Source: Chloroflexota bacterium
GTDB taxonomy: Bacteria; Chloroflexota; UBA6077; FW602-bin22; JAMCYS01
Direction: 5' to 3'
NCBI GenBank assembly: GCA_023473795.1
Contig: JAMCYS010000052.1
Coordinates: 1 to 35,176, forward strand
Length of the DNA: 35,176 nucleotides
In this document: in pieces, positions 2,730 to 32,869 of the stretch
Position numbering within the stretch: position 1 is the stretch's first letter
Layout of the letters: each line of letters opens with the position of its first letter
Notes under the pieces: generated by a model
The model's input: the letters and a program-made list of their open reading frames with translations, nothing else
Told to the model about the DNA's origin: nothing
Databases searched by the model: none
Translations under genes and position numbers: made by a program

Positions 2730-3416
2730 ATGCTTAGCGTCGACGAAGCCGCCCAGATGATCGACCATTCGATCCTGCTGCCCGGCCAGAGCGACAAGGA
2801 CTTGGAGGCGGGCATCGAGATCGCGCGCAAGTACCATACTAAGTGCGTCGTGCCTAAAGCCCATCAGGCGGTGAGGGCGAAGGAACTGTTGCAGGGCTCC
2901 GGCGTGCGGCTCTGCCTGCCCATCGGCTTTCCCCAGGGCTTCAACCTGCCCGAGGTGAAGCGACTGGAGGCGGAATTAGTGCTGCGGCAGGGCGCGCAGG
3001 AACTGGACATGATGATCAATACCTGCGCGCTCAAGTCCGGCGATTACGCGCTCGTGGAGCGGGATATCCGCGGCGTCGTCGAGGCGGCCGCGCCGTACGG
3101 GGCGCCTGTGAAAGCCATCATCGAGACCGACGTTCTCACCGACGAGGAGAAGGTGACGGCGGCCAAGATCGCCGAACAGGCCGGCGCCAAGTTCGTCAAG
3201 ACCTCCAGCGGCACTCTGCCCGGCGGCGCCACGGTGCACGATACTAGATTGCTGCGCGCCACGGTCGGCCCGGGGGTGGTCGTCAAAGCCTCGGGCTGGG
3301 TGACCGACGCCGACAAGTTTCTGGCCCTCTTCGACGCCGGGGCGCGCCGCTTCGGCACATCGTTCACGGCAACCATACTGGAGGGCTTGCGGCACAAGCT
3401 GGCGACCCAGTCGTAG
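2730..3416 (+). CDS. deoC: Deoxyribose-phosphate aldolase
   Basis: A 228-residue class I aldolase that splits 2-deoxyribose 5-phosphate into glyceraldehyde 3-phosphate and acetaldehyde in cytoplasmic deoxynucleoside breakdown. The start is ATG at 2730 behind AGGGAGGT; a frame open from 2667 has no ribosome site. Family landmarks are in order: IDHSILLPG at residues 11-19, ELDMMIN with Asp93, LKSGDY at 101-106, FVKTSSG with the expected Schiff-base Lys157, and VKASGW with Lys186 before AGARRFGTS. Length is normal for the family. It stands alone: no deoA, deoB or nucleoside phosphorylase adjoins it, so it may serve general deoxyribose salvage. A GC-rich hairpin follows the stop. Confidence 0.95.
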   Translation: MLSVDEAAQMIDHSILLPGQSDKDLEAGIEIARKYHTKCVVPKAHQAVRAKELLQGSGVRLCLPIGFPQGFNLPEVKRLEAELVLRQGAQELDMMINTCALKSGDYALVERDIRGVVEAAAPYGAPVKAIIETDVLTDEEKVTAAKIAEQAGAKFVKTSSGTLPGGATVHDTRLLRATVGPGVVVKASGWVTDADKFLALFDAGARRFGTSFTATILEGLRHKLATQS

Positions 3417-3612: not shown

Positions 3613-3641
3613 TTGACAAGCGGTTAATGAGTCTCTATACT
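3613..3641 (+). promoter_or_regulatory. Strong sigma70 promoter of the GntR gene
   Basis: A consensus TTGACA (3613-3618) and TATACT (3636-3641) are separated by exactly 17 bases. The predicted initiation point near 3648 falls inside a palindrome (3643-3660), the arrangement expected of an autorepressed regulator. Confidence 0.8.
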
Positions 3642-3642
3642 G

Positions 3643-3660
3643 CATCGTGCATGCAGCATG
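3643..3660. promoter_or_regulatory. Candidate operator palindrome at the GntR transcription start
   Basis: The sequence CAT-CG-TGCATGCA-GC-ATG is symmetrical except for the two spacer dinucleotides. It begins two bases after the -10 box. GntR-family regulators bind such short palindromes; here it would block initiation. The same sequence was not seen elsewhere in the window. Confidence 0.45.
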
Positions 3661-3708
3661 TGGACGGATCGTTCGGCTTGCTGCCGCCTGGAAGGTGAGG
3701 AAGATACT

Positions 3709-4482
3709 TTGAAGGCAGGGCCGCCTCTTAGCCAGTATCCAGACCTAGGAGATCGGGTCTATTACTTGCTGCGCGAGCAGATCCTCACGGCCAAACTGCC
3801 CCCCGGCAGCCTGTTGCTCGGCGTCGAGCTGGCACGGGACCTCGGCGTCAGCCGTACGCCTGTTGCCGACGCCCTTAACCTGCTGGCTTCTGAGGGCTTG
3901 GTGGAGGTCGTGCCCCGTAAGGGCTACTTCGTCACCACCTTAGACATCCAAGCCTACTTGGACCTAATGGACGCCCGCCTGGCAATCGAGATGGCGGCGG
4001 CGGAGCGCGGCATCGCCAAGGCGAGCGAGGCGCAACGCGCTGCACTGAGGCAGCAACACGCCAAGGTGAGCGAGTTCAGTGCTGACTCAGAGCGCCCGCT
4101 TGACTACCCGGAGTGGGCGGGCCGTGACGCGAGGTTTCACGAGCTGCTGGTCGAGACTTCCGGCAACCCGTACCTGATGGAGGCATATGGCCGCCTCAGC
4201 GCGCGCGCCCAGTTGGCCTACATTCGCTTCTCGCTTAGCGCCGGCATTCGGCCCGTGGCCGACAGCGTTGGCGAGCACGAGGCCATCCTCGCGGCTTTCT
4301 TGGCTGGTGATCTGGCCGCCCTCCAGGTGGCAATTACGACCCACGTCGACCGCTTGCGGCAGTTCCACGCTGCCAGGTCCCAAGCGATCGCCGCGCGACC
4401 GCTCGCCCAGCAGCAGCCGGCCGCACGTGTGAGCAAGCGCTTGCACTGGCCCGGCCGAAACCGACCCGCGGAGGGGTACTAG
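3709..4482 (+). CDS. GntR-family (FadR/FCD subfamily) transcriptional regulator
   Basis: A winged-helix DNA-binding domain at about residues 10-75 shows the GntR pattern (LREQILTAKLPPGSLL, then ELARDLGVSRTPVADALNLLASEGLV and RKGYFV). An all-helical FCD ligand-binding domain follows (about 85-225), with DARFHELLVETSGNPYL and GEHEAI...THVDRLRQFH supplying the usual metal-binding Asp/His positions. I chose TTG at 3709, which has GGAAGGTGAGGA upstream. The in-frame ATG at 3658 lies only about 10 bases from the predicted transcript start and has no ribosome site. The C-terminal 25 residues are basic and poorly conserved-looking. It probably controls itself and the following URO-D/permease/HyuA cluster in response to a carboxylate-like ligand, as FCD regulators usually do; the ligand is unknown. 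Confidence 0.9.
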   Translation: MKAGPPLSQYPDLGDRVYYLLREQILTAKLPPGSLLLGVELARDLGVSRTPVADALNLLASEGLVEVVPRKGYFVTTLDIQAYLDLMDARLAIEMAAAERGIAKASEAQRAALRQQHAKVSEFSADSERPLDYPEWAGRDARFHELLVETSGNPYLMEAYGRLSARAQLAYIRFSLSAGIRPVADSVGEHEAILAAFLAGDLAALQVAITTHVDRLRQFHAARSQAIAARPLAQQQPAARVSKRLHWPGRNRPAEGY

Positions 4483-4617
4483 AGGCTACCGTCGCTGCTG
4501 ACTCGAGGCGACCTCCCGACTCAGGCACCCGGTGAGCGGTCAAGCCAGTGCTGCCCGGCGCCGCCCGCGTTATTGGGCGGTGCCCGGCCAATCTCTAGTT
4601 GACAGAAAGGAGACGGC

Positions 4618-5679
4618 GTGATCGAGCCAAACTTCGAGCGTATCAGGGCCATGCTTCTGCGCCGGGGCGAGCCGGACCGAGTACCGCTCGCCGACATCAG
4701 CGTGCATAACCTACACAAAGAGGCCATTCTCGGGCGACCCCTCAAGACCCTGGCCGACGAGGTGGAGTTCTGGCGGGTCGCCGGCTACGACTGGGTTCCC
4801 CTCCATCAGGGTCTACAAGAGACTCCGTTGATCAAGAAGCAGGCGATGCACAGCATCGAGGCCAACTATGCCGCCGACACGTCCGACAACCAGGAGCGGC
4901 AGTGGGCCACCGGCGCCAAGAGCATCGTGCTCACCGGCCGCGACCTGGACGCCCTCGACTGGCCCGACCCTGACAACCTGGACTATAGCCAGTTCTCCCA
5001 GTTGGGCTCCTTGCTGCCCGCCAACATGGGCGGCGTCGCCGTCCTAGGCAAGATCTTCTCCTCCGTCTGGTGGCTGATGGGGCTCGAGGGTCTGAGCATG
5101 GCCCTGGTGGACGAGCCCGACCTGGTGCCGCGCCTCTTCCAGAAGGTGGGCGAGTTCCAGACGCGCGTGCTCGAGAACATGCTCAGTTTCGACGCCGTCA
5201 AAGTGGTCTGGCACGCCGACGACATCGCCTACAAGAACCAGCCGATGATCAGCCCCCGCCTGCTGCGGGCGCACCTCTTCCCCTGGTACGTCAAGATGAA
5301 CCGTCTCACCCACGACAAGGGGCGTATTGTGGTCTACCACAGCGACGGCGCCCTGCAGCAGGTGATGGAAGACATCGTCGCCGCGGGCTTCGATGGTCTA
5401 AATCCCATCGAGCCACCGGCTATGGACATCAATTGGGTGAAGAAGGAGTACGGCAAGCACCTGGCCATTATGGGCAACATTGATCTTGGTTACACGCTGA
5501 CACGGGGTACCCCGGATGAGGTCAGGGCCGAGGTTCGCCAGCGCATCCACGACCTGGCGCCGGGCGGAGGCTACGGTTTGGCCTCCAGCAACTCGGTTCC
5601 GGAGTACGTGCCGCTCGCCAACTACAACGCGATGCGCGAGGCGACCTTCGAGTACGGCCGCTACCCGATCACGGTCTGA
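4618..5679 (+). CDS. URO-D (uroporphyrinogen decarboxylase) superfamily protein, possible methyltransferase
   Basis: GTG start at 4618 with AAAGGAG 7 bases upstream; 353 residues, the usual length for this TIM-barrel superfamily. Recognisable elements are the N-terminal ERIRAMLLRRGEPDRVPLAD, WHADDIAY at 198-205, VVYHSDG with His241, FDGLNPIEP near 258-266, and IMGNIDLGYTL at 284-294. True heme-pathway HemE and the MtaA/CmuA methyltransferases share this fold. The catabolic neighbours (GntR regulator, permease, HyuA-like ATPase) argue against heme synthesis. The His-x-Cys zinc motif of methyltransferases is not seen; the residues after His241 are Ser-Asp-Gly. No corrinoid protein is adjacent. 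Substrate unknown. A decarboxylase, lyase or methyl-transfer role is all that can be inferred. Confidence 0.88.
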   Translation: MIEPNFERIRAMLLRRGEPDRVPLADISVHNLHKEAILGRPLKTLADEVEFWRVAGYDWVPLHQGLQETPLIKKQAMHSIEANYAADTSDNQERQWATGAKSIVLTGRDLDALDWPDPDNLDYSQFSQLGSLLPANMGGVAVLGKIFSSVWWLMGLEGLSMALVDEPDLVPRLFQKVGEFQTRVLENMLSFDAVKVVWHADDIAYKNQPMISPRLLRAHLFPWYVKMNRLTHDKGRIVVYHSDGALQQVMEDIVAAGFDGLNPIEPPAMDINWVKKEYGKHLAIMGNIDLGYTLTRGTPDEVRAEVRQRIHDLAPGGGYGLASSNSVPEYVPLANYNAMREATFEYGRYPITV

Positions 5680-5773
5680 GAGGGTGGACGCCGAAAGGGG
5701 GTGGTATCGCCTGCTGGTGCCGGCAACTCGGCGTTTCCCCGAGTCGTAGCGACCCAAGCGGTTCCGTCATCTC

Positions 5774-5788
5774 CACAGATAATCTGTG
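5774..5788. promoter_or_regulatory. 15-bp perfect palindrome overlapping the permease leader
   Basis: CACAGAT-A-ATCTGTG is perfectly symmetrical and directly abuts the AAAGGAG ribosome site of the permease gene. It could be a protein operator or an mRNA hairpin that controls access to the ribosome site. It differs from the palindrome at 3643. Confidence 0.35.
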
Positions 5789-5809
5789 AAAGGAGTTCGC
5801 GGACAAGCA

Positions 5810-7114
5810 ATGAGCGCACTAATCGGCATACTGATGCTCGTTTTGTTCCTGGCGGTCGTGATCTTGATCATCAGGGGCGAGAGTCCGATCATCTCGCTAC
5901 TGGTGCTGGCGATCGCCTGGGCCCTTCTGGCTGGTGTCCCAATTGTCGGCGAAGCCGGCAAGGACATTCTCAGCGGCGTTCTGCAGAAGGGCGGCACCGA
6001 CTACGCGTCTTCCATCGTTATCATCGTCTTTGGGGCCTGGTTTGGACAGACCCTAGTGAAGACAGGCATCGCGGAGAACATCATCCGCGGGGCGATCGAG
6101 CTGGCCGGCGACCGGCCGGTGGTCGTCGCGATGGTGGTGTCGGTCACCGTCGGTCTGCTCTTCACCTCAATTTACGGCGTGGGCGCCGCCATCGCCATCG
6201 GCGTTATCGCCCTGCCGATCATGATGTCGATGGGCATCCCGCCCTGGGTGGCGGCGCCGGCCTTCACGATGGCCATCGGCGCCGGCAACTACATCAACCT
6301 GGTCGAGTTCAACATCTTCAAGCCCATGTTCCCGGGCATTGCCTACGACCAGCGGTACTTCACTTTCGCCATAGTCGGCTTCGCCGTCTACGTGCTGGCC
6401 GCCTGCGCCATGTCCGTCTACCAGCTGCAGCTGCGGGGCGTGCGCAAGTACTCGTCGGTCAACGTGGCCCCGCCGGTGGCGGCCCGGATCAAGATCCAGT
6501 GGTACGCCTACCTAGCGCCGGCCGTGCCGGTGGTGTTGGTGATGGCCTTCGCGTGGCCGATGATCCCGGCCTTCATCGTCGGCACCGTGTACGCCCTGAC
6601 GGCGACCCACTTCGGCAAGCGCTCCGTACGTGACAGCGTCGACCTCTTTCATCGGGCGTTCTACGATGCCTTCCCGGATATCGCTACCATCGCGGCGTTG
6701 TGGATTATCTGCGGCATGTTGATCGTTGCCGGCCAGCTGCCTCAGGTTCAGGCGGTTCTGGGCCCGGTTATCAATCCGGTGCTGCCCAGCACGCCTCTGG
6801 CCGTCTCCATCTTCTTCGCTCTGTTGGCGCCTCTGGCCATCTACCGCGGTCCGTTCTCGGTCGTGGGCACGGGCGCGGCCGTCCTGGCGATGTTCCTGAA
6901 CGCCAAGGCGGTTTCACCCGTCTATCTGTTCTCGGTCTGGCGCGGCGCGCTCTGCCTGCAGGGCAGCCAGGACCCGACCAACTCCTGGACGCTGTGGACC
7001 ATCGGTTACACCAAGGTCACGCACGGCCAGTTCCTGAAGACCGCCCTACCGTTCGGCTGGGCGATGGTCGCGATCAACGCCTTCATCGCCTACTTTATGT
7101 TCGCCGGCGTCTAG
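5810..7114 (+). CDS. Multi-pass membrane permease, substrate unknown (ion-transporter-like)
   Basis: A 434-residue protein with about 11-12 hydrophobic helices. Start ATG at 5810 (MSALIGIL), preceded by AAAGGAG at a rather long 14 bases. An in-frame GTG at 5786 would place the Shine-Dalgarno inside the gene. The overall pattern is a short hydrophobic N-terminus, then SSIVIIVFGAWFGQTLVKTG, a Gly/Ala-rich helix pair near residues 105-145, and a repeat-like second half with TIAALWIICGMLIV. This resembles secondary carboxylate permeases of the GntP/CitMHS/ion-transporter type, but I cannot name the family. It sits between the URO-D protein and the HyuA-like protein on one strand, so it probably imports their substrate. 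A 29-base hairpin separates it from the next gene. Confidence 0.78.
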   Translation: MSALIGILMLVLFLAVVILIIRGESPIISLLVLAIAWALLAGVPIVGEAGKDILSGVLQKGGTDYASSIVIIVFGAWFGQTLVKTGIAENIIRGAIELAGDRPVVVAMVVSVTVGLLFTSIYGVGAAIAIGVIALPIMMSMGIPPWVAAPAFTMAIGAGNYINLVEFNIFKPMFPGIAYDQRYFTFAIVGFAVYVLAACAMSVYQLQLRGVRKYSSVNVAPPVAARIKIQWYAYLAPAVPVVLVMAFAWPMIPAFIVGTVYALTATHFGKRSVRDSVDLFHRAFYDAFPDIATIAALWIICGMLIVAGQLPQVQAVLGPVINPVLPSTPLAVSIFFALLAPLAIYRGPFSVVGTGAAVLAMFLNAKAVSPVYLFSVWRGALCLQGSQDPTNSWTLWTIGYTKVTHGQFLKTALPFGWAMVAINAFIAYFMFAGV

Positions 7115-7127
7115 TCGCCGGCCACTG

Positions 7128-7156
7128 CTGTCTTCCTGCCTGCCGGGCGGGAGACA
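7128..7156. terminator. Intercistronic hairpin between permease and HyuA-like genes
   Basis: CTGTCTTCC and GGGAGACAG pair over 9 bases with one G-U wobble around a 11-base loop. No U-run follows, so partial termination or mRNA stabilisation is more likely than full termination. Confidence 0.35.
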
Positions 7157-7223
7157 GCCTGTCCAACTCAGCTCGGCCGGGCAGGCGCCTCTGACCGGCC
7201 GAGCTTACTCCAGGAGAACACCA

Positions 7224-9386
7224 GTGAGCGAGCGCACCTACCGTATCGGCATCGACGTCGGCGGCACCTTCACCAAGGCGGTGGTGATTGACAACGATAC
7301 CCAGGAAGTAATCGGCAAGTCCTCCGTCCTCACCACCCATTCGGCGGCGGAGGGAGTCGCCAAGGGGGTGATCTACATCTTCCAACGCGCGCTCACTGAT
7401 TTCGCGGTCGATCCCAGGAAGGTCGTCTTTCTGGCACACAGCACCACCCAGGCCACCAACGCCCTGCTGGAGGGCGACCTGGCGCCGGTGGGCATTGTCG
7501 GCATGGGCGGTGGCCGGGTCGGCGGGCTGCTGGCCAAGAACCAGACGGTAATCGGCGACATCGCCCTCGTCACCGGCCGGCACCTCAAGACGTACCATAC
7601 CTTCGTCAATACGGACAAACTGACGCCGGAGGAGGCTAAGCGCGCCATCGAGGAACTGCTGGCCAAGGGGGCCAAAGTCATCGTCGCCAGCGACTCGTTC
7701 AGCGTGGACGACGCCAGCAACGAAGCCATCGTGATGACCGCGGCCGAGGGTCTTGGCGTGCCCTCTACCGGCGGTAGTGACATCAGCAAGCTCTACGGCC
7801 TGACCATCCGCACCCGCACCGCGGTGATCAATGCCAGCATCCTACCCAAGATGCTGGAGACGGCCAACATGACAGAAAGTAGCGTTCGCCGGGCGGGCAT
7901 CGAGGCTCCCTTGATGATTATGCGCGGCGATGGTGGGGTGATGGATACCGCCGAGATGCGCCGCCGGCCCATTCTCACCATGCTCTCCGGCCCCTCGGCC
8001 ACCGTCGCCGGCGCCCTGATGTACCTGCGGGTGTCCGACGGCGTGTTCTTCGAAGTCGGCGGGACCAGCACCAACATCGGCGTGATCCGTAACGGCCGGC
8101 CGACCATCAAGTCGGCCGAGGTTGGCGGTCACCGCACCTACGTCAATTCGCTCGACATCAGAGTGCTCGGCATCGCCGGCGGCAGCCTGGCGCGCGTGCA
8201 AGGCAATCAAGTAGTCGACGTGGGACCGCGCAGCTGCCACATCGCCGGCTTGCCCTACGCCGCCTTCGCCGCCCCGGGGGAGATGGAGGAGCCCGAGCTG
8301 ATCTTCATCCAACCCAAACCCGAGGACCCGGCGGACTACGCTGCTGTCAAGACCAAGAGCGGCAAGGTTTTCGGCATCACCAACACCTGCGCGGCCAACG
8401 CTTTGGGCCTAGTCAAAGAGGAGTATTACTCGCACGGCAACCGCGAGGCGGCTCGCCTGGCCATCTCTCCTCTGGCCGAGCAGCTGGGGGTCTCTATCGA
8501 CGAGGCGGCCCGGCGCATCCTCGACGTCGCCACCGACAAGGTCATTCCGGTCATCAACACCCTCGTCCAGGAGTACGAGCTGGACCGCGATCAGGTGATG
8601 CTGGTGGGCGGCGGCGGCGGCGCGGCGGCCCTGATTCCCCACACCGCGGAGCGTATGGGGTTCGGCTACCGCATTCCCCAGGACGCTGAGGTGATGTCCT
8701 CCATCGGCGTCGCCCTGGCGATGGTGCGCGACGTGGTCGAGCGAGTGCTGATCAACCCCTCGGTCGACGACATCGCCGCCATCAAACAGGAGGCCCGTGA
8801 GGCGGTGATGAAGGCCGGCGCCAACCCGGATACCCTGGAGGTCTTCGTCGAGATCAACCCCCAGACCGGTCGGGTGCGAGCCACGGCGATAGGCACGAGC
8901 GAGATGCGCGCTCAGGATCTGTTGAAGAACGTAGACGAGAGTGAGGGCCTGAAGATCGCCGCCCAGTCTATGAACTTGTCGCCAGAAAATGTGCAATTGA
9001 AGGCCAGCACCGGATTGGTGCACGTCTATCAAGGGCTCGTGGCAGAGAAACGCCTGCGCTTCTTTACCAGTCGTCGCTATCCTGTACGAGTCCTCGACCG
9101 CCAGGGCTTCATCAAGGTGCAGCGCTCCGATGCCTCCGTCTACCAGTTCTCGGCCGGCATGGCGCTGGCCGGTTTGAAAGAGACCTGGGACAACCTCACC
9201 ATCTACAACGGCGACTCGATAATCTACCCCGACCTATTCCTCATCGTCGGCAGCCACGTGGTGGACCTGAGCGGCGTGCAAAGTGTCGAGCATGCCTCTG
9301 GCCTGGTCAACGCCGAGCTGGATGGCTTGCGCCCCGACGAACCGGTGGCGGTGGTGGGCGTGCGCGGCCAGAGGGGGCTGTCATGA
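7224..9386 (+). CDS. HyuA/oxoprolinase-family (hydantoinase A) ASKHA ATPase-type protein
   Basis: A 720-residue protein starting at GTG 7224 after CCAGGAGAAC. The actin-like ATP-binding motifs of the HyuA family are clear: GIDVGGTFTK at 9-18 (phosphate 1), HSTTQATNALLEG at 72-84, FFEVGGTSTNIGV at 275-287 (phosphate 2), and VGGGGGAAALIPH at 461-473 (adenosine motif). Residues from about 530 to 720 form a C-terminal region I do not recognise. Known HyuA-type proteins use ATP to open lactam or hydantoin rings (5-oxoproline, N-methylhydantoin, caprolactam) or to carboxylate ketones, usually with an HyuB subunit. No HyuB gene follows; instead there is a 4-base overlap (ATGA) with the HExxH protein. 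The substrate is unknown. The pairing with permease and URO-D protein suggests one catabolic route. Confidence 0.9.
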   Translation: MSERTYRIGIDVGGTFTKAVVIDNDTQEVIGKSSVLTTHSAAEGVAKGVIYIFQRALTDFAVDPRKVVFLAHSTTQATNALLEGDLAPVGIVGMGGGRVGGLLAKNQTVIGDIALVTGRHLKTYHTFVNTDKLTPEEAKRAIEELLAKGAKVIVASDSFSVDDASNEAIVMTAAEGLGVPSTGGSDISKLYGLTIRTRTAVINASILPKMLETANMTESSVRRAGIEAPLMIMRGDGGVMDTAEMRRRPILTMLSGPSATVAGALMYLRVSDGVFFEVGGTSTNIGVIRNGRPTIKSAEVGGHRTYVNSLDIRVLGIAGGSLARVQGNQVVDVGPRSCHIAGLPYAAFAAPGEMEEPELIFIQPKPEDPADYAAVKTKSGKVFGITNTCAANALGLVKEEYYSHGNREAARLAISPLAEQLGVSIDEAARRILDVATDKVIPVINTLVQEYELDRDQVMLVGGGGGAAALIPHTAERMGFGYRIPQDAEVMSSIGVALAMVRDVVERVLINPSVDDIAAIKQEAREAVMKAGANPDTLEVFVEINPQTGRVRATAIGTSEMRAQDLLKNVDESEGLKIAAQSMNLSPENVQLKASTGLVHVYQGLVAEKRLRFFTSRRYPVRVLDRQGFIKVQRSDASVYQFSAGMALAGLKETWDNLTIYNGDSIIYPDLFLIVGSHVVDLSGVQSVEHASGLVNAELDGLRPDEPVAVVGVRGQRGLS

Positions 9387-10045
9387 CGGGCACGGCAGGC
9401 GAGTTGCTGGCCGCCGTCGTCGCCGTCGGCAGCGAGCGCCGTTTTGCCCGGCTGACGCTGGAGGATGATCCCTTCGCGCCACGCCTGGGCGGGCACGAGG
9501 AGGAGGCGCTCTCCTACGCCTTCGTGGCGGGCCAGACTGCTGCGGACGAGACGGCCAACGCCTACGGCCGGGACCCGGAGGCGGTCGCGGCTGCCCTCGG
9601 CTTAGCGGTCAACCGCGATTCCCTTGAGGCCAAGGCGGGGAGCTCCGTCCGTCTCTCCGAGTACGGCGACCGCCCGCCTGAGATCGTGCTCCACATGGAT
9701 TCGCTCGACGCCGCCCAAGAGACGATCCAGGCGCATGGCCTGGAGTCGCTGCTCGGTTTTTCCGACCCCCAGCCGGCCCAGGTGGCCCACGAGATCTATC
9801 ACCACTTGGAGACCAAACACCTGACCGCGGGCACCGCCGGCTTCCGTCTCCCCGTGCTCGATCTGGGCCCCTTGCACCTGCGGCGCACTTTCCCCTCGTT
9901 GAGCGAGATTGCCGCCGATCGCTTTGCCATTGCCTTGCTCGGCCTCCGGGTGCCGCCGCGAGCGATCCACTTCCTAGTCGTCTACCAGCACAATCCAGCC
10001 TACGCCTGGCAGCTACTGGATAGACTGCGCTCCCTGCCAGAGTAG
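9383..10045 (+). CDS. Unknown protein with HExxH zinc-metallopeptidase-like motif, coupled to HyuA-like gene
   Basis: A 220-residue soluble protein whose ATG overlaps the HyuA stop by 4 bases, so translation is probably coupled. It has His136-Glu137-x2-His140 in AHEIYHHLE. Thirty-four residues after the second His comes LSEIAADRFAIALL, where Glu175 is positioned like the third zinc ligand and the ExxAxxFA context recalls ImmA/IrrE-type gluzincins. Upstream, ETANAYGRDPEAVAAALGLAV looks helical and recalls those proteins too. No signal peptide or membrane span is seen. A zinc-dependent hydrolase or a zinc-binding structural partner of the HyuA-like ATPase are both possible. The motif is seen directly; the function is inference. 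I know no named family for it. Confidence 0.82.
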   Translation: MTGTAGELLAAVVAVGSERRFARLTLEDDPFAPRLGGHEEEALSYAFVAGQTAADETANAYGRDPEAVAAALGLAVNRDSLEAKAGSSVRLSEYGDRPPEIVLHMDSLDAAQETIQAHGLESLLGFSDPQPAQVAHEIYHHLETKHLTAGTAGFRLPVLDLGPLHLRRTFPSLSEIAADRFAIALLGLRVPPRAIHFLVVYQHNPAYAWQLLDRLRSLPE

Positions 10046-10654: not shown

Positions 10655-11725
10655 ATGCCAGGGTCCTTTGAGCCGCGCCTGTTGGCCACCACGCTGGGCA
10701 GTCTGCCTCACCGTGACGTGACCCGGGCGACGGAGCTAATTCTCGAGTACACGCCGGAGATTCCCGCCTGGGTGCAGCTCCCCAAACGCGGCGAGAGCAT
10801 GCTGCGCCAGTTCAACGATGGCCTTCCGGGCTACATCGCGGGCGACGGCAGGCCCCACTTCGACACCGCCCGTTCCGACTTCGAAGAGGCGCTGGCCGAC
10901 TTTTACACCCTCTACCTCGGCGTGACCGAGGACTTGGACGAGGAGGCGCTGGCGGTTTTCGCTCTGCCGGCCGAGCAGGCGCGTGGTCTCTACGAATTGG
11001 AACGGCTGCTGCCCGAGAGCGGCATCGTGCCCGTGGCCGTCAAGGGGCAGGTCACCGGTCCCTTCACCCTGGCCACTAACCTCACGGACCAGGACTTTCG
11101 CGCCGCCTACTACGACGAGCGCCTGCGAGACGTCATCGTCAAGATGATTGGCCTTAAGGCGCGCTGGCAGGTGCGCCGCCTGCGGCGCCTGGCTTCGCGG
11201 GTGCTGATATTCATGGACGAGCCCGGCCTGCTCGGGTTCGGCAGCGCCCAGTACATCTCGATCAGTCGCGAGGACATAGTCCGCGACCTGGACGAGGTGG
11301 CCGCGGCCATACACGAGGAGGGGGCCCTCGTCGGCGTGCACTGCGAAGAGAACACCGATTGGTCGCTGCTGATGGCGTGCGACCTCGACATCCTCGACTT
11401 CGACGCCTACGGCCACCTGCAGAGCGTGCTGCTCTACCCAGCCGATCTCGCGGCTTTCCTCGCCCGCGGCGGCAGCCTGGGCTGGGGGCTGGTGCCGACT
11501 CTGGACCGAGAGGCCGCGGCCGCGGAGACGGTGGAGGGCCTGTCGGCGCGCTTCGAGCAGGGCCTCGACGAGCTTGAGCGCCGGGGGGTGAGCCGAGACC
11601 TCCTCCTGCGGCGAGCGCTACTCACTCCCTCCTGCGGCGCGGGCACGCTCACGGAGGAGCTGGCGGAACGCGTGCTCCAGCTACTGAGCGAACTGTCTTC
11701 ATCGCTGCGGGCGCGCTACGCCTGA
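10655..11725 (+). CDS. MetE/URO-D superfamily protein (methionine-synthase-like)
   Basis: A 356-residue TIM-barrel protein with the hallmarks of uncharacterised MetE-like methyltransferases: TTLGSLPH at 12-19, VKGQVTGPFTLA at 129-140, FMDEPGL at 186-192, GVHCEENTDW with His229 and Cys230, DFDAYGH near 248-254, and TPSCGAG with Cys327. His229, Cys230 and Cys327 match positions that bind zinc and activate a thiol in cobalamin-independent methionine synthase. The N-terminal folate-binding half of MetE is absent, so it is not a full MetE. ATG 10655 is preceded by GTGAGGT. It is followed after 22 bases by a helical-repeat protein on the same strand. Methyl donor and acceptor are unknown. Confidence 0.85.
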   Translation: MPGSFEPRLLATTLGSLPHRDVTRATELILEYTPEIPAWVQLPKRGESMLRQFNDGLPGYIAGDGRPHFDTARSDFEEALADFYTLYLGVTEDLDEEALAVFALPAEQARGLYELERLLPESGIVPVAVKGQVTGPFTLATNLTDQDFRAAYYDERLRDVIVKMIGLKARWQVRRLRRLASRVLIFMDEPGLLGFGSAQYISISREDIVRDLDEVAAAIHEEGALVGVHCEENTDWSLLMACDLDILDFDAYGHLQSVLLYPADLAAFLARGGSLGWGLVPTLDREAAAAETVEGLSARFEQGLDELERRGVSRDLLLRRALLTPSCGAGTLTEELAERVLQLLSELSSSLRARYA

Positions 11726-16242: not shown

Positions 16243-18027
16243 TTATGGCGGTGGTTTGGGACTGAGTGAGTAGGTGACACGTATGTCCTCGCGCCCAGGT
16301 AGGCGAACCAACGCCTGGATCTGCCAGTCCCCTGGCAGCGAGAGGTATTTACCCTCGCCAGAGTAGCGCCCGTTACCCCGTCCAGCCAGCACCACCTCGG
16401 TCGTGCCCAGGCTGCTGTCCGGCGGTGTCAGCAGTAGTGCGACCTTGTCCGCGCCGTCCAGCGGTCGGTGCAAGCTATCCCGCAGGTAGAGTTCAAAGGT
16501 GTTGTCTCCCAGCCGGCCGGGAGTGACCGCCAGAATCGTCTCGATGCCATCAGCCTGGGCGCGCAGCACTATCCCTGCCCCGAACGCCTCCCGCGCGGGC
16601 TGCAGGCCGGTGAGAAGCGCGGTCGCGCCCAGAATTCCTGCCACCAGCGCCATCTCGCTGCCAACCGCCCAGAGCAGCCGTGTCGACCATTTGCCGGCGT
16701 GCGGTCCGGCTAACCGCCGCCGGATTAGCAGCAAGTTGAGCCCCGCCAGGCCGAGTAGCGGGGCCAAGAGGCTAAGCTTGGCGGCGAGTGCCAAACCGTA
16801 GGCGGTATCGAGCAAGTTGTTGGGGTCGGCCACCTCGAATGTGGCCCGGTAGATGCCAGTCGCCACGATCACCAGTACCGAGAGGCCCGCCAGACGGGTG
16901 AATCCGGCCGCCAGACGATCCACAAGGTCGGTCGAAGCCACACCAGGCAAGCGTCGGGCTGTCCGCAAGGATAGTGTCAGCATCACCAGTCCGCCACCCC
17001 AGAGGCAGACCGCCGCGAGGTGGAGCCAGTCTGCCAGCAAGGATAAAGCGGGCTCGTTGGTCCCCGCGGCGTGGCTGCCCGCGCTCGTGGCCAGGAGCAA
17101 AGCGGCCCCGAGCGCTAGCGCACCGCCCAGCCACCACCAGGGCAGCGGCCGCCGTGGCGACAGCGACTGGCCGATGGCCAGGCAGCCGCCCATACCGGCC
17201 AGAATGGTCACTCGCAGCCAGAGGAGCGCGCCGTAGCGGGTGCCCTGTAACAGGTTGCTCAGTGGCGCCCCTAGCGCGCCGGCAAGGTCCGTATCCGCGC
17301 TGGCGGCTGCCTGCAGGACCGCCCCGCCGATGGCGGCCATCATGGCCAAAGCCCAGGCCAGGTAGAGGGTCGAGTAAGGCAGGGCCAATTCCACGTCGGC
17401 TACCAGGCTAAGGGCAGTCCGTCCGCTGGGGGAACCGGCCCTGGGCGCTCCTGCCCTCGGCAGGGCGGGGCGCAGCACGGCCGGGTAGAAGGCGATGCCG
17501 CCCACGAGTACGGCGATGGCGAGGTAGTCAAGCCAGTGGGCAACGGTCAGCGATGGGTCGGCCTGGTAGTTGTTGGCCGAGAAGTCGCCGTACATGGCCT
17601 GCAGCTGCCCCGGCTTGACGATGTCCGTGCCCACTACAAAGGCGAAACTGCCGCCAGTGACGTGCCCATCGATGGTGGAGGTCACCCGGTAGGCTACCGT
17701 GTAGATACCTTTGTCCAGGGGCTGCATGGGGACGATGAGAGAACTGGCATCGGAGGGATCGACCGTCGGCGCCCCGGCGGCGTCGCTTCGTTTGCCAGTG
17801 CGGTCGAGAACCTTCACCTCCGAGAGTTTGAGTTCCGGCGGTTCGGAGAAATGCAGCACCAGCTGGGTAGGCGGCTGCTCCAGCACGGCATTGGCGGCGG
17901 GCGTACTGCTCACCAGCCCCGCGTGGGCCAGGGCCAGAGCCGGCCAGTCCAGCAGCGATAGCGCCGCCGTCAGGATGGCGAACAGCAGCAGCGCCGGGCG
18001 CGTGCGCCTGCGGGACCCGTCCCTCAC
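16243..18027 (-). CDS. CopC-CopD fusion, copper resistance/uptake protein
   Basis: A 594-residue protein with a signal peptide (to about residue 34). A CopC beta-sandwich follows, beginning with His in AHAGLVSSTPA and containing HFSEPPELKLSEV and TSTIDGHVTGGSFAFVVG. The N-terminal His and the Asp/His pair are the expected Cu(II) ligands. A CopD-type membrane domain with about 8 helices occupies residues about 160-480 (WLHLAAVCLWGGGLVML is typical), and a C-terminal extracytoplasmic domain lies at about 490-594. It binds copper outside the membrane and probably moves it inward. GTG start overlaps the upstream gene stop by 4 bases, so the two are coupled. The YtkA-like C-terminal part is tentative. 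Confidence 0.92.
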   Translation of the reverse strand: MRDGSRRRTRPALLLFAILTAALSLLDWPALALAHAGLVSSTPAANAVLEQPPTQLVLHFSEPPELKLSEVKVLDRTGKRSDAAGAPTVDPSDASSLIVPMQPLDKGIYTVAYRVTSTIDGHVTGGSFAFVVGTDIVKPGQLQAMYGDFSANNYQADPSLTVAHWLDYLAIAVLVGGIAFYPAVLRPALPRAGAPRAGSPSGRTALSLVADVELALPYSTLYLAWALAMMAAIGGAVLQAAASADTDLAGALGAPLSNLLQGTRYGALLWLRVTILAGMGGCLAIGQSLSPRRPLPWWWLGGALALGAALLLATSAGSHAAGTNEPALSLLADWLHLAAVCLWGGGLVMLTLSLRTARRLPGVASTDLVDRLAAGFTRLAGLSVLVIVATGIYRATFEVADPNNLLDTAYGLALAAKLSLLAPLLGLAGLNLLLIRRRLAGPHAGKWSTRLLWAVGSEMALVAGILGATALLTGLQPAREAFGAGIVLRAQADGIETILAVTPGRLGDNTFELYLRDSLHRPLDGADKVALLLTPPDSSLGTTEVVLAGRGNGRYSGEGKYLSLPGDWQIQALVRLPGREDIRVTYSLSPKPPP

Positions 18028-21122: not shown

Positions 21123-22154
21123 GTGCGGATGTTGCTCACCGGTAGGGCCCGAGTAACCAGCAAGGAATTGGCGGCGGCGGCCGGCGTCTCCCCTTCCACG
21201 GTCTCGCGCGTGCTCAACGGCGTGGCCCATGATATGGTCAGCGAGGAAACGCGAGCAAGGGTCATCCGGCTCGCCGCCGAGATGGGCTACGTGCCCAACG
21301 CCGCCGCTCGCCAACTGCGCACGCAGCGAGCCCAGGCTCTCGGTTTGCTGCTGCCTTCCATTGCCCACGAGCTGGCGGGCAACTACCCCCTCTTACAGCA
21401 GCTTGCCGGCATCGCGGAGGGCTTCCAGTCGATGGGTTACAACTTCGTGCTCTGCCCCGCCCTCTCGGGCAACGAGCCCATGCGCCTCTTCCGCAACGCC
21501 CAGATCGACGGCGTCCTGGTGATGCATCCCAAAGAGGACGAACCTTGCCTGGTGGAGCTGCACGAGGCGGGGGTACCGATCGTGGTGCTCAACGAGTTAC
21601 CGGCCGACTGCGATCTGCCCTGGGTGGACATCGACAACGTCGGCGGCGCTCGCCAGATCACCGAGCACTTGCTCCAGCGAGGACACCGCCGCATCGGGCA
21701 CATCTACGGCCGGCCCGGCTACGTCGTGACCGGCCTCCGCATGCGCGGCTACTGCCAGGCGCTAGCAGGGGCCGGAATAGGGATAGACGAGGACTTGCTG
21801 GCCGTGGTGCCCGAGCCCGCGCAGGGCCCGCAGGGCACTGAGGCGACCCGCCGTCTGCTCGCTCTGCCCGACAGGCCAACGGCGGTCTTCTGCCACGGCG
21901 ACCTGCTCGCCCACGGCGCCTTGCGGGCCGTGGAAGAGCTGGGGCTGCGGGTGCCTGAGGACGTGGCCGTGGTGGGCTTCGACGACGAGCCGAGCAGTGC
22001 CTACCAGCGGCCGGCCCTGACGACAGTGCGGGCGCCGTTTCGCGAGAAGGGCAGGGTAGCTGCCAGGTTGCTCGTGGAGCTGGTCGAGGGCAGGGTGCTG
22101 GCAGAGCGACGGGTGAAGTTGGCGGCCGAACTAGTCGTGAGGGCATCGAGCTAG
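21123..22154 (+). CDS. LacI-family transcriptional regulator
   Basis: A 343-residue repressor. The helix-turn-helix is [23 protein letters not shown] at about residues 11-33, followed by the hinge helix [21 protein letters not shown]. The periplasmic-binding-protein-like domain has [15 protein letters not shown] and the C-terminal [24 protein letters not shown] signature. GTG 21123 or ATG 21129 could be the start; neither has a strong ribosome site, though TAGGCGG precedes. It lies just upstream of the sugar ABC genes and most likely controls them through the palindrome at 22215. The inducer is presumably the transported sugar or a derivative, which cannot be named. Confidence 0.93.
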
Positions 22155-22214
22155 CTAGTCAACAGCTGATCCGCGCTCAAGGAGGAAGATGAGAAGAAGA
22201 GAACGGTTCGTGAG

Positions 22215-22226
22215 GCAACCGGTTGC
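22215..22226. promoter_or_regulatory. Candidate LacI-family operator upstream of the sugar ABC genes
   Basis: GCAACCGGTTGC is a perfect 12-bp palindrome with the central CG typical of LacI/GalR operators (compare AACCGGTT cores). It lies between the regulator stop and the binding-protein start, 76 bases upstream of that start. Confidence 0.55.
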
Positions 22227-22301
22227 GTCGCCACGGTTCTGAAGCCATCGTTGTCAGGTAGAGGTAAATGTCGTGCTAGGGCACGAGAGTGAGGAGAAGA
22301 A

Positions 22302-23831
22302 ATGGCTTCCCAACACGGATTGACACCTTTGCAGCGCAAGTCCCTGTCGCGCCGCGCCTTTCTGCTGAAGGTCGGCGCCCCCGCGGCTCTAATGGCTGTG
22401 GTGGCGGGCTGCCAGACGCCTGCGGCTGCGCCGACCACGGCGCCGGCCCCCGCGGCAACCCAGGCGCCTAAGCCGGCCGCCACCACGGCACCCGCGCCCG
22501 CTGCGACCACGGCTCCCGCCGCCACGGCGGCGCCCGCAGCGGCGGCCACCACAGCCCCTGCCGCCGCGACCAGCCCGTTCCTGCCGCCCGCCGTCAAGGC
22601 CAGCGCGCCCATGAAGATCACCTGGTGGAACTGGCACGGCTGGCACAGCGACACGATCAACAAGGTGGCGGCCGAGTACAAGAAGCTCTACGACCAGAAC
22701 GTCACCCTGGAAACGACCGCCTACCCCGATCAGGTTCAATGCAAGGCGGCAGTTACCGCGGCCATAACTGGTGGCTCAGGTCCCGATCTCTGGTCCACCC
22801 TACCGGGCGGCGACATGGTCAGCGTGGCCACCAGCGGCACGGCGATTTCTTACACGGACGAGCTCTTCACCAAGGACCCGGACTGGGAGAAGAGCTACTT
22901 CCCCTTTGTCAGAGGCCTGTTCTCCGTGAACGACAAGGTCTGGAGCGCCACGCCGATCAGCAACGCCTATGCCCTCTGGTACAACAAGGGTCTGTTCGAC
23001 AAGTACAGCGTCAAAGTGCCGACTACCTACGACGAGTTCAAGGCGGCGTCGGCGACCTTCTTGAAGAACGGCGTCACCCCCGTATCGGTGGCCGGCGGCA
23101 CGGCCTCCCATCCGGACATGATCTTCTACTGGTTCGTGAACAGCCTGGGCTATGCCAACAAGATGTTGCAGGCCGACCTGGGCCAGGCGTCCTGGACGGA
23201 CCCCCAGCTGGTCGAGGCCATGCAGATCTACGAGGACTTCGGCAAGGCCAACCTCGTGCCTGCCGGCGTTCTGGGCATCAAGGAGCCGGACGCCATCACG
23301 CTCTTCGCCAGCGGCAAGACGGCCATGATGCTTGAAGGCAACTGGGCCCGCACCACACTGGCCAAGGCCATCGCGCCCGACGTTAAACTCGGTTTCGTCG
23401 TGCTGCCCGCCGCCAAGGCTGGTGCCAAGCAGACGGCCCTGGCCAGCGTGGGCATTAGCACGACCATTAACAAGGCCTCGAAGAACCTGGAAATCGCCAA
23501 GTCGGTCGCGCGCTTCGTCACCACGGGCGCCGGGCGAGCCATCTATTGCGGCGGCGTGGGCATCCCGCCCAGCGGGCCGGCCAGCAGCGCCGAGAAAGAC
23601 CAGATGGCCAAAGCCGTAAACGATCCAGTGTGGCCCGACTGCGTCGACGTCGGCTCCAAGGCCACCGGTCTGCGCCATCTCTTCACGCCAACCGTGGAGC
23701 AGGCGTTGGGCCAGGCGGCGGCCACAATACTCAGTGGCAAGGGCAAGGCCGCGGACGTGCTGGCCCAGGTGGAGGCGATCTCCAAACAGGCCGGTAAGCG
23801 CAACTTCACCGTGCCACCCTGGAACATGTAG
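22302..23831 (+). CDS. Sugar ABC transporter substrate-binding lipoprotein
   Basis: A 509-residue extracellular binding protein from ATG 22302 with GAGGAGAAG upstream. The N-terminus has a twin-arginine-like SRRAFLLK (17-18 Arg-Arg) and lipobox VVAGC with lipidated Cys37. Residues 38-100 are a flexible Ala/Pro/Thr linker common in Chloroflexota lipoproteins. The rest fits the carbohydrate-binding family 1 (MalE/UgpB-like): ITWWNWHGWHSDTINKVAAEYKK at the start of the fold, WYNKGLFDKYSVKVPTTYDEF, and MLEGNWARTTL. It delivers an oligosaccharide or sugar derivative to the two downstream permeases. The ligand is not predictable. It is the first gene of the transporter operon. Confidence 0.94.
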   Translation: MASQHGLTPLQRKSLSRRAFLLKVGAPAALMAVVAGCQTPAAAPTTAPAPAATQAPKPAATTAPAPAATTAPAATAAPAAAATTAPAAATSPFLPPAVKASAPMKITWWNWHGWHSDTINKVAAEYKKLYDQNVTLETTAYPDQVQCKAAVTAAITGGSGPDLWSTLPGGDMVSVATSGTAISYTDELFTKDPDWEKSYFPFVRGLFSVNDKVWSATPISNAYALWYNKGLFDKYSVKVPTTYDEFKAASATFLKNGVTPVSVAGGTASHPDMIFYWFVNSLGYANKMLQADLGQASWTDPQLVEAMQIYEDFGKANLVPAGVLGIKEPDAITLFASGKTAMMLEGNWARTTLAKAIAPDVKLGFVVLPAAKAGAKQTALASVGISTTINKASKNLEIAKSVARFVTTGAGRAIYCGGVGIPPSGPASSAEKDQMAKAVNDPVWPDCVDVGSKATGLRHLFTPTVEQALGQAAATILSGKGKAADVLAQVEAISKQAGKRNFTVPPWNM

Positions 23832-23886
23832 AAACGGCGCGGTCAAGACGATTCTCTGGTTTGGCGGCATACCGCTAGACTCGAGC

Positions 23887-23921
23887 GCGGTCGGAGCGGG
23901 AGACTCTCCCGCTCCGACCGC
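23887..23921. terminator. Strong intercistronic hairpin between binding protein and permease genes
   Basis: Two 17-base perfect inverted arms (GCGGTCGGAGCGGGAGA and its complement) are separated by one base, giving a very stable stem. It lies 55 bases after the binding-protein stop and 14 bases before the permease start. Such stems protect the upstream mRNA and reduce permease expression, as in malE-malF; it could also be a dispersed palindrome. Confidence 0.75.
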
Positions 23922-23935
23922 TAGGAAGGTCAGCG

Positions 23936-24856
23936 ATGGCTTCAGTCACGGCGTCGGCAGCGACCGGCAAACGCAGACAGGCGAACGTGCGGCGCCACGT
24001 CACCGGCTACCTCTTCGTGCTGCCGGCGCTCGTGGTCTACAGCGCCTTCGTCGTTTACCCGACACTCTACACCTTCGTCCTCAGCTTCTTCAGTTGGACC
24101 GGCATGACGCCGCAATGGGGTCCGTTCGTCGGCTTTGGCAACTTCACCACCGCGATGGCCGACCCGGTCTTTTGGACCGCCATCCGCAACAATATCCAGT
24201 TCGTGCTCGTGCGCACGCCGCTGGAAGTGGGCTTCGCTTTGGTGCTGGCAGTGATGCTCAACAACCAGATGAGGGGCTGGCGGGCTTGGCGTACCTTGCT
24301 CTTCGTGCCGGTCGTGCTATCCCTCGTCGCTGTGGGCCTGGTCTTTGGCCGCCTTCTGGAAGCCTCAACCGGCGTGCTCAACGTGTTCCTCACCGCCGTC
24401 GGACTGAAGTCCCTGGCTCTGCAGTGGTTGGGCGATCCCGACGTGGCCCTCTGGTCGATCATCGGGGTCTCGGTCTGGAAGAACATTGGCTTCAGCATGG
24501 TCATCATCCTGGCCGGACTGCAAAGCTTGTCGCAGGAGGTGGTGGAAGCCTCGAGGGTTGACGGAGCCAATGAAGTCCAGTCGACCGTCTACGTGATCAT
24601 TCCGATGCTGCGGCCCGTCATCGCCATCGCCACCGTGCTCTCGGTCATTTCCGGGCTGAAGGTGTTCGACCTTATCTTCATCATGACTCAAGGCGGGCCG
24701 CTGTACTCCACGGAAGTGCCGATGACGCTACTCTACCGCTACGCCTTCACCTTCAACGCGATGGGTCAGGCGGCGGCGGTAGCTGTCATGCAGGCGGCTT
24801 TGATCATGTTCGTCTCTTGGCTGCAGCTGCGCTTCGTGCGCGGGGAGGTGGGCTGA
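23936..24856 (+). CDS. Sugar ABC transporter permease, MalF/UgpA type
   Basis: A 306-residue integral membrane protein, ATG 23936 behind AGGAAGG. Six hydrophobic segments are seen, the first at about residues 20-42 (GYLFVLPALVVYSAFVVYP). The cytoplasmic EAA loop reads VEASRVDGANEVQSTVYVIIPMLRP, the docking site for the ATPase. It forms a heterodimeric pore with the next gene product, and the stop overlaps that gene's start (TGATG). No ATPase is encoded nearby. Confidence 0.95.
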   Translation: MASVTASAATGKRRQANVRRHVTGYLFVLPALVVYSAFVVYPTLYTFVLSFFSWTGMTPQWGPFVGFGNFTTAMADPVFWTAIRNNIQFVLVRTPLEVGFALVLAVMLNNQMRGWRAWRTLLFVPVVLSLVAVGLVFGRLLEASTGVLNVFLTAVGLKSLALQWLGDPDVALWSIIGVSVWKNIGFSMVIILAGLQSLSQEVVEASRVDGANEVQSTVYVIIPMLRPVIAIATVLSVISGLKVFDLIFIMTQGGPLYSTEVPMTLLYRYAFTFNAMGQAAAVAVMQAALIMFVSWLQLRFVRGEVG

Positions 24857-25737
24857 TGGCTGCCGACGCGAGCGCGCTGGGCCACGCTGAGGCGGCAGCC
24901 CGGGCCGACCGCCAGCGCAAGGCCGCCTTGCGAGCCTTGCGCTGGTTGATTGTGATCTTCTTTGTCTTTGTCTCTGTTTTCCCCGCGATCTACATGGTTG
25001 TGGTTTCGCTGATGACCAGTCAGCAGATGTTCCAGGCGGTGTTGGTGCCCTGGCCGCTGAACTGGCAGAACTACGTAGATGCCTGGGTCAAGGCCAAGAT
25101 AGGTGTACTCTACTGGAATAGCATCTACATCTCGACGACATCGGTCGTCCTGACTCTGCTCGTTTGCGCCCCCGCCGGCTACGGGCTGGGGCGGGTGAAG
25201 TTCCTGGGCAGGGGCCTCTTCTTCAACTTCCTCTTGCTGGGTTTGACGTTGCCGGTGTCGACGAGCCTGTTGCCCTTATTCTTCAACTTGAAGACCTTCG
25301 GGTTGATGAACACGCCCTTTGCCCTGATCGGCCCTTACACGGGCTTCGGCATCTCGTTCGGCGTGTTCATTCTCAAGGGGTTCTTCGAGACGCTGCCGAT
25401 CGAGATGGAGGAGGCGGCGCGGGTCGACGGGGCCAATGAGTTCCGCATCTTCTGGCAGGTGATGTTGCCCCTCACCCGGCCTGCCCTGGCGACGGTGAGC
25501 ATCTTCCTCTTCTTGACTAATTGGAACGAGTTCATCTTCGCCCTGACCTTCATCACCGAGCCGTTGATGCGCACTCTGCCGACCGGCATCTACTCGCTGA
25601 GCGGCCAGGAGTTCTACGGCAACTACCCTACCCTGGCGGCGGCGTTGGTTATCTTCTCCATCCCGGTGATCGTGCTCTACTTCCTCTTCCAGAGCCAGTT
25701 CATCGAGGGCCTGACGGCGGGCGCGGTCAAGCAGTAA
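24856..25737 (+). CDS. Sugar ABC transporter permease, MalG/UgpE type
   Basis: A 293-residue permease starting at ATG 24856, which overlaps the upstream stop by one base; GGGGAGGTGG is the ribosome site. After a charged N-terminus the first TM is LIVIFFVFVSVFPAIYMVVVS. The EAA loop is EEAARVDGANEFRIFWQVMLPLTRP. The tail ends FLFQSQFIEGLTAGAVKQ, the usual MalG-like ending with the conserved GLTAGAVK. It pairs with the preceding permease. It is the last gene of the operon; a tandem repeat and a hairpin follow. Confidence 0.95.
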   Translation: MAADASALGHAEAAARADRQRKAALRALRWLIVIFFVFVSVFPAIYMVVVSLMTSQQMFQAVLVPWPLNWQNYVDAWVKAKIGVLYWNSIYISTTSVVLTLLVCAPAGYGLGRVKFLGRGLFFNFLLLGLTLPVSTSLLPLFFNLKTFGLMNTPFALIGPYTGFGISFGVFILKGFFETLPIEMEEAARVDGANEFRIFWQVMLPLTRPALATVSIFLFLTNWNEFIFALTFITEPLMRTLPTGIYSLSGQEFYGNYPTLAAALVIFSIPVIVLYFLFQSQFIEGLTAGAVKQ

Positions 25738-25984: not shown

Positions 25985-27130
25985 CTAAGCCGGCTGCCGC
26001 ACCTCTTGGCCTATCCGAGCGATCAGATCGGGCGAGAGGGGCAGAGCGGCCTTCTCCATAATGGCGCTGAGCGTCAGGAGGTTTTCGTTGCCGACCTGGT
26101 TCTCGGTCGAGGCGGCCAGGGCCAAGCGTTCGCCGCTGCCGGCCTCGCTTAGCAATTCCAGCGCGCGCTGGCGGGTGGCCTGGGGGCCCAGGGCGTAGAC
26201 GGAGCCGGGGAAGCCGATCCAGATGGCCTTGTTGGGCCAGGCTGCCAGCGCCTCGCCCAACGGCAGGTCGCCCATCGGCAAGGGATGAAATGCCTCCACT
26301 ATGTCCACGGGGCTTCTGGCGATTAGGTCCTTCAGCGCCCCCAGGCGCCCGTCCATGTGTACGGCCATCACCTTGCCGGCGGCGTGGACGAGCGCCGCTT
26401 CCTTCTCGTACTCGGGCAGAAAATACTTCTCGAAGATTCTCGGCACCGCCAGGAAGCCGTCCACGTTGTCGCCGCACATCACGATGGACGCGGGCGACTG
26501 AGCCGAGATGGCGTACATTCGCTCGCGGCTTCGTGAGATGGCGCGGTAGAGGTCCTCCACCACTTCGGGGTAATCCATCAAGTGGTAGAAGAAGCGGCCG
26601 CCCTCGCTGCCCACCCAGTCGATCATCAGCATCTGCATCGGCGAGTGCGGTAGGTTGGCCACGACTACTCCGTCCTCGCCCAGCCAGTCCATCGCCTGCT
26701 CGATGGGAAAGTAGTCGGCGACGTACTCGGTGTTCTCGACGATGTACTTGACTACCTGGTAATCCTCGGGTTCCTTGATCCGCCGCGAGGTCTGCCAGGG
26801 GGTCACGTCGCGCCAGCTACGATTGACCTTCCACTGGCCAACGCCGGGGTCGCGCCATTCGTCCTCGTAGACGCTGCCCACCGGCGTGTTGAAAGTGCGG
26901 CGGATGACCGGCCGGCCCTCCACCACGACCCGGGTCTCCACTACCTCGACATTGTGCAGTCTCTCGACGTAGGCGGGGCGTAGCCAGCAGACGCCCATGC
27001 CGCGGTTGCGGGCTTCGCGCTCGGCAAAGCCATCCTGCATGTGGCGCCACCAATGGAAGAACGGTAGCTTGTCCGTCTCCTGACGCCGGGCGGCGGCGAG
27101 TATGCGTTGACGCCGGGTCATCTCGGCCAT
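25985..27130 (-). CDS. URO-D (uroporphyrinogen decarboxylase) family protein
   Basis: A 381-residue TIM-barrel protein. N-terminus TRRQRILAAARRQETDKLPFF is the standard opening of URO-D family members. Other landmarks are LPHSPMQMLMIDWVG, VMCGDNVDG near residue 220, MAVHMDGRLGALKDLI with the expected His at the metal or substrate site, and a C-terminal NLLTLSAIMEKA. The methyltransferase His-x-Cys pair is not obvious, as also in the paralogue at 4618. It is transcribed convergently with the sugar ABC operon. Paralogues of this kind often sit in sugar or methylamine loci of Chloroflexota and Firmicutes but few are characterised. Not a likely heme enzyme, given the extra length and lack of heme genes. 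Confidence 0.87.
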   Translation of the reverse strand: MAEMTRRQRILAAARRQETDKLPFFHWWRHMQDGFAEREARNRGMGVCWLRPAYVERLHNVEVVETRVVVEGRPVIRRTFNTPVGSVYEDEWRDPGVGQWKVNRSWRDVTPWQTSRRIKEPEDYQVVKYIVENTEYVADYFPIEQAMDWLGEDGVVVANLPHSPMQMLMIDWVGSEGGRFFYHLMDYPEVVEDLYRAISRSRERMYAISAQSPASIVMCGDNVDGFLAVPRIFEKYFLPEYEKEAALVHAAGKVMAVHMDGRLGALKDLIARSPVDIVEAFHPLPMGDLPLGEALAAWPNKAIWIGFPGSVYALGPQATRQRALELLSEAGSGERLALAASTENQVGNENLLTLSAIMEKAALPLSPDLIARIGQEVRQPA

Positions 27131-31971: not shown

Positions 31972-31972
31972 G

Positions 31973-32776: not shown

Positions 32777-32869
32777 GAGGCAGCCTCCCTTCCTTCCTCT
32801 CCGTCTAGTGACGGGCGGTCGACCGAGGCCGTTTAGGCCCTTGCCGGTAAGGGTGCAACCATGGGAGAG

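Follow-up and report, generated by a model that had tools for sequence, protein, structure and literature searches.

HyuA-type enzymes normally work with a HyuB subunit. In caprolactamase, phosphorylation falls to the HyuA-type chain CapA, and the HyuB-type chain CapB carries out hydrolysis at a Zn site with essential ligands (PMC8453981). A different combination appears in Lactobacillus rhamnosus, where HyuA, DUF917, and a permease stand in one gene list and consecutive accession numbers suggest that they are adjacent (PMC7513527). We analyzed a contig of 35,176 nucleotides from a Chloroflexota genome, referred to below as the window, in which a HyuA-like gene is followed by a gene for a small protein with an HExxH motif. 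We are close to certain that a conserved operon module, widespread and lacking HyuB, is made up of three components: a permease, a HyuA-like ATPase, and a small HExxH...E protein. No literature on the HyuA-HExxH pair was found among open-access papers.

Features of the locus in the window, with the evidence for each
Feature	Coordinates	Strand	Evidence
DeoC/LacD-family aldolase, upstream neighbour, candidate locus member	2730-3416	+	Pfam DeoC 5.5e-6
Sigma-70-like promoter-like site, TTGACA-17-TATACT	3613-3641	+	11/12 matches
TGCATGCA palindrome, possible operator	3648-3655	none	read in sequence
GntR/FCD transcriptional regulator	3658-4482	+	Pfam FCD 1.4e-22, GntR 1.1e-15
URO-D superfamily protein, accessory gene	4618-5679	+	Pfam URO-D 2.9e-17
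Permease, core gene 1, weakly CitMHS/GntP (IT)-like	5810-7114	+	no Pfam match of its own
HyuA-like ASKHA ATPase, core gene 2	7224-9386	+	Pfam Hydant_A_N 1.2e-20, Hydantoinase_A 5.3e-66
HExxH...E zincin-like protein, 220 residues, core gene 3	9383-10045	+	invariant motif

All five ORFs of the original prediction were found on the forward strand, together with its promoter-like site and its palindrome TGCATGCA (Table), and the HyuA stop codon and the ATG of the HExxH gene share the 4 bases ATGA, as had been described. About 1 promoter site above the lower threshold of the scan is expected by chance. The regulator more likely starts at the TTG at 3709, behind AAGGTGAGG, than at the ATG at 3658. 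In the 135-base gap 5' of the URO-D gene, which contains a G+C-rich imperfect inverted repeat, neither a second promoter nor a terminator was predicted. The DeoC/LacD-type aldolase upstream may belong to the pathway, and modules in relatives often adjoin KDPG aldolases. Downstream, an ORF with no Pfam match (10655-11725, +) resembles what we take to be a relative of cobalamin-independent methionine synthase (MetE). Elsewhere in the window, we identified a CopC-CopD-YtkA fusion protein (16243-18027, -) and a divergent second URO-D-like gene (25985-27130, -), near which lie genes (21123-25737, +; 30838-33313, -) for a LacI regulator, a sugar-type ABC transporter with a substrate-binding protein (SBP) and 2 permeases, a glucosamine-isomerase-like protein, and an oxidoreductase of the GFO/IDH/MocA type.

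The window genome, which is 96% complete, encodes a single HyuA, and no match to HyuB (Pfam PF02538) was identified anywhere in it, bearing out the claim that this HyuA stands without HyuB. Within its class, HyuA was present in 24 of 29 genomes and HyuB in 23 of those 24, leaving the window genome as the only one of the 29 with HyuA and no HyuB. A PF02538 search of 50 genomes bearing the module HyuA found HyuB absent from 41. A HyuB-like domain hidden in the HyuA C-terminus or elsewhere in the operon was excluded by Pfam, the genome-wide PF02538 search, and fold comparison, the HyuA model aligning with ordinary HyuA over nearly its full length.

HyuA relatives were obtained from a scan of 84,980 species, and 80 loci at 50-61% identity were compared among the matches listed. 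An HExxH ORF was located directly 3' of HyuA in 73 of these 80 listed loci, spanning 5 bacterial phyla; the HExxH gene of haloarchaea is likewise directly behind HyuA, and haloarchaeal and Streptomyces plasmids carry the same arrangement. Overlaps of 4 bases between the 2 genes were observed in haloarchaea, Streptomyces, Clostridia, Bacilli, Chloroflexota, and Betaproteobacteria. The exceptions included 1 locus that reaches a contig edge (L117), 2 with broken HExxH copies (L065 and L079), and 2 whose genomes own a second, complete module (L093 and L126). Only the sister sequences L087 and L089, among the 80 listed, lack HExxH and the permease together. These are related proteobacterial HyuA copies that stand alone, and HyuB is matched 13 times in the L087 genome. 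Copies of HyuA with a permease only and no HExxH gene were found on Selenomonas pSRC1 and as second copies in some genomes.

A profile search for the HExxH protein in 50 genomes chosen for HyuA recovered 64 copies, of which 62 lie directly behind an intact HyuA, 1 lies behind an internally deleted HyuA, and 1 is a weak match 3.7 kb off. Clostridium sp. Marseille-P2415 carries a third module copy (L154 2263-2873, -) whose HyuA has a large internal deletion with the N- and C-terminal ends kept and the permease and HExxH genes flanking. Among 399 Bacillota genomes, an independent sample, the HExxH protein was identified in 20 and HyuA in 22, with all 20 included in the 22 (Fisher p 9e-32) and 1 of the 20 being the centre of the sample. 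Some Bacillota genomes have a kinase, decarboxylase, or other genes between HyuA and HExxH in the same gene run. Across 400 Chloroflexota genomes, the HExxH protein was limited to the window genome and 1 other (G289), both of which carry the module. The co-occurrence tables exclude chance neighbours, and the listed loci, profile copies, and Bacillota genomes all bear out, as genetic constancy, the predicted partnership of the HExxH protein with HyuA.

In the window HExxH protein, HEIYH occupies residues 136-140 and the downstream Glu is residue 175. The 58 sequences of the family share about 25% identity, yet all 58 retain H136, E137, H140, and E175 without exception, with the Glu 32-38 residues downstream of HExxH. 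The metal ligands and the catalytic Glu being invariant, catalysis is therefore under selection. No Pfam or NCBIfam family accounts for the protein among the 58 members, none of the 58 matched the Pfam ImmA/IrrE model, and a sequence search against solved structures returned no useful relative for either the HExxH protein or the permease. The AlphaFold2 model (pLDDT 94) gave its best fold matches, all weak, to PprI/IrrE, minigluzincins, and phage IrrE proteins, including PprI 8slm (E 0.97, prob 0.75, TM 0.36) and phage IrrE (E 6e-3, prob 1.00, TM 0.33-0.50). A hydrolase of gluzincin-like type that depends on zinc is the most probable identity of the protein, with zinc as the presumed metal.

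The model of the window HyuA (pLDDT 84) aligns for the greater part of its length with chains of N-methylhydantoinase, Apc, Acx, and CapA (9h03, 5l9w, 5svc, and 6yra), which makes it a genuine HyuA fold, and the ATP fold is kept. Its phosphate motifs read DVGGTFTK (P1) and EVGGTSTN (P2) against DxGGTxTD and DxGGT; D11 and the Gly-Gly-Thr cores are kept, and the last Asp of P1 has become Lys and the first Asp of P2 Glu, giving the clade residues K18, E277, and N284. Most of the clade likewise has DVGGxxTK in place of DxGGTxTD and EVGGTxTN as the second motif, with the terminal Asp residues retained in haloarchaeal, Selenomonas, and Streptomyces members. Because the haloarchaeal and Streptomyces HyuA with terminal Asp still have the HExxH gene, the pairing is independent of the Lys/Asn change. 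Because Lys ends P1 and Glu and Asn stand in P2, the chemistry of the clade may differ from lactam phosphorylation.

The HyuA tree separates the window sequence by a deep split from the HyuA paralogues of its own class (SH-aLRT 100) and places it nearest to sequences of Pseudomonadota and Rokubacteria. Contamination of the MAG by this contig was excluded, its G+C and tetranucleotides agreeing with those of 20 other contigs of the genome. The contig has the composition of its genome and the nearest HyuA come from these other lineages, so the module was likely acquired by lateral transfer and then adapted. A sister HyuA clade, found on a Deinococcus plasmid and in Chloroflexota genomes (L049 and L052-L062), sits in an FTR1 iron-permease operon that encodes FTR1 with the REXXE motifs kept, a helical protein with a signal peptide or Cys lipobox, and a small protein with one TM segment. 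The HExxH gene is absent from these FTR1 operons. A lactam substrate is unlikely in them, and the factor in common with the module is a permease.

A permease homologue was identified in 81 of 85 loci among those listed, and the other 4 are L087 and L089, L086, where the contig ends, and L097, which has a broken copy. Pfam detected CitMHS in 3 of 24 permease relatives (best 4.6e-6) and GntP in 1 of 24, and because of these weak matches we place the permease, weakly, near the IT permeases. Counted as gene clusters around the core, with families taken from cluster representatives or members, the commonest neighbours in the loci listed were GntR regulators (27 loci), Ldh_2 (18), PfkB kinases (13), and DUF386/YiaL (13), followed by LacI (10), KDPG aldolases (10), SIS (9), HUMPS (8), and AP_endonuc_2 (7), and other loci had FAD_oxidored, DUF4127, aldehyde dehydrogenase, PLP enzymes, or RraA-like aldolases. 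There was no consistent nitrogen-metabolism signature among the module neighbours.

The neighbourhoods thus divide the five-gene set of the original prediction, which homologues lying mostly apart would have refuted: the permease, HyuA, and HExxH genes stay together, and URO-D and GntR are not constant and are replaced by other catabolic genes, mostly of sugar or sugar-acid types. The idea of one shared regulator was not supported, its type differing among relatives (GntR, LacI, or IclR). Nor does URO-D hold as a core part, since beyond the window the neighbour checks of the 80 listed relatives found it only in the Treponema locus L100. A role of the window URO-D as an MtaA/CmuA corrinoid methyltransferase was excluded because both Cys zinc ligands of MtaA are missing: the protein has HSDG and SSNS where MtaA 4ay7 has HICG and PGCG, and it scores 48 bits against NCBIfam MtaA, with a cut-off of 400. 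The suggested methylated-carboxylate route finds no support in a URO-D protein without these ligands.

We propose that the module takes up an organic compound and begins to break it down. The permease would carry the compound in, and HyuA would use ATP to activate a carbonyl or carboxylate of it, in the manner of CapA/OplA-type chains. Bound to HyuA in a complex, the zincin would provide a metal-bound water by which the activated intermediate is opened or hydrolysed, taking over the job of the HyuB/CapB Zn site with the same division of labour and a different metal domain. The product could then be processed by locus-specific enzymes, namely URO-D and perhaps DeoC in the window and PfkB kinases, KDPG aldolases, HUMPS/SIS, Ldh_2/YiaL, or FAD oxidoreductases in relatives, with a local GntR, LacI, or IclR regulator presumably controlling the module. 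Given the changes in the ATP site and the neighbouring sugar-acid genes, the substrate may be anionic or derived from a carbohydrate and not a plain lactam. That the zincin is the catalytic partner of HyuA on a small molecule is a tentative reading, to which we give somewhat less than an even chance. It draws on the missing HyuB, the strict linkage, the invariant metal ligands and Glu, the HyuA ATP fold with D11, the precedent of caprolactamase, and the catabolic neighbours, and against it stand the altered P1 and P2 motifs, the inconsistent nitrogen-metabolism signature of the neighbours, the protease-like nearest folds, some HyuA without a zincin, and the sister clade without HExxH.

HyuA proteins of this clade might instead be partners of permeases, with ATP energising, gating, or coupling transport or phosphorylating the entering cargo, and the HExxH protein an accessory and not a hydrolase of the cargo. 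We regard this, the main rival, as unlikely, although a permease accompanies HyuA at nearly all the loci listed while the catabolic genes vary, the sister HyuA clade adjoins another permease, FTR1, without HExxH, and L087 and L089 have lost permease and zincin together; CitMHS/GntP-like proteins and FTR1 are secondary carriers for which an ASKHA partner is not known, no membrane segment was found in HyuA, and a permease next to a catabolic enzyme is commonplace. The more specific form, in which a HyuA-derived ASKHA ATPase is a dedicated partner of a CitMHS/GntP-like permease (FTR1 in the sister clade) and the HExxH protein an accessory subunit of a new kind of ATP-assisted transport, is a shade more doubtful.

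The closest folds, PprI/IrrE and minigluzincins, raise the alternative of a protease like ImmA/IrrE, with a role in regulation or maturation, that cuts HyuA, the permease, or the operon's repressor and so controls the pathway instead of acting on the small molecule. Gluzincins typically combine HExxH with a distant Glu set in ExxAxxFA, and protease genes often adjoin the genes of their targets. However, the HExxH gene tracks HyuA and not the regulator, as GntR, LacI, and IclR alternate while HyuA stays, and the fold matches are weak, with no member matching Pfam ImmA/IrrE; such a protease is therefore improbable in our view. The strict linkage and the small size of the protein would also be consistent with a role outside catalysis, as an assembly factor for HyuA or as its metal chaperone. 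However, every member keeps the catalytic Glu137 along with the His ligands, and we consider this role very improbable.

Annotations treat HyuA chains as one half of a hydantoinase, oxoprolinase, or carboxylase. Because a broad HyuA clade does without HyuB and retains, as its partner, a metalloprotein lacking a Pfam or NCBIfam model, such annotations are probably wrong in at least hundreds of genomes, among them those of Enterococcus and of Lachnospiraceae from the gut. Small, portable, and amenable to testing, the module could reveal either a hydrolase of a new, two-part kind or a new coupling of an ATPase to a permease.

Compared with HyuAB, OplAB, and CapAB, the module has the same HyuA fold, the core motifs of the ATP site, and an adjacently encoded metal-binding partner and, under the catalytic-partner model, would share the metal-assisted hydrolysis of an ATP-activated intermediate. 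It differs in having no HyuB, a partner that is a 170-270 residue HExxH...E protein, K18/E277/N284 in most members, and a CitMHS/GntP-like permease that is nearly always present. Acetone and acetophenone carboxylases (Acx and Apc) also contain HyuA-like kinase chains, matched in structure (5l9w and 5svc/5m45), whereas the module operon has neither an alpha/beta HyuB-like chain nor a gamma subunit: only the five described ORFs were found in 3658-10045, and PF02538 is absent genome-wide. ImmA/IrrE (M78) proteins and minigluzincins share HExxH, the downstream Glu, and a weak fold match with the HExxH protein, which in contrast lacks a Pfam match, has extra N-terminal helices, and is tied to HyuA and not to an XRE repressor. 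The L. rhamnosus set likewise places HyuA beside a non-HyuB partner and a permease, but the partner there is DUF917 (PMC7513527).
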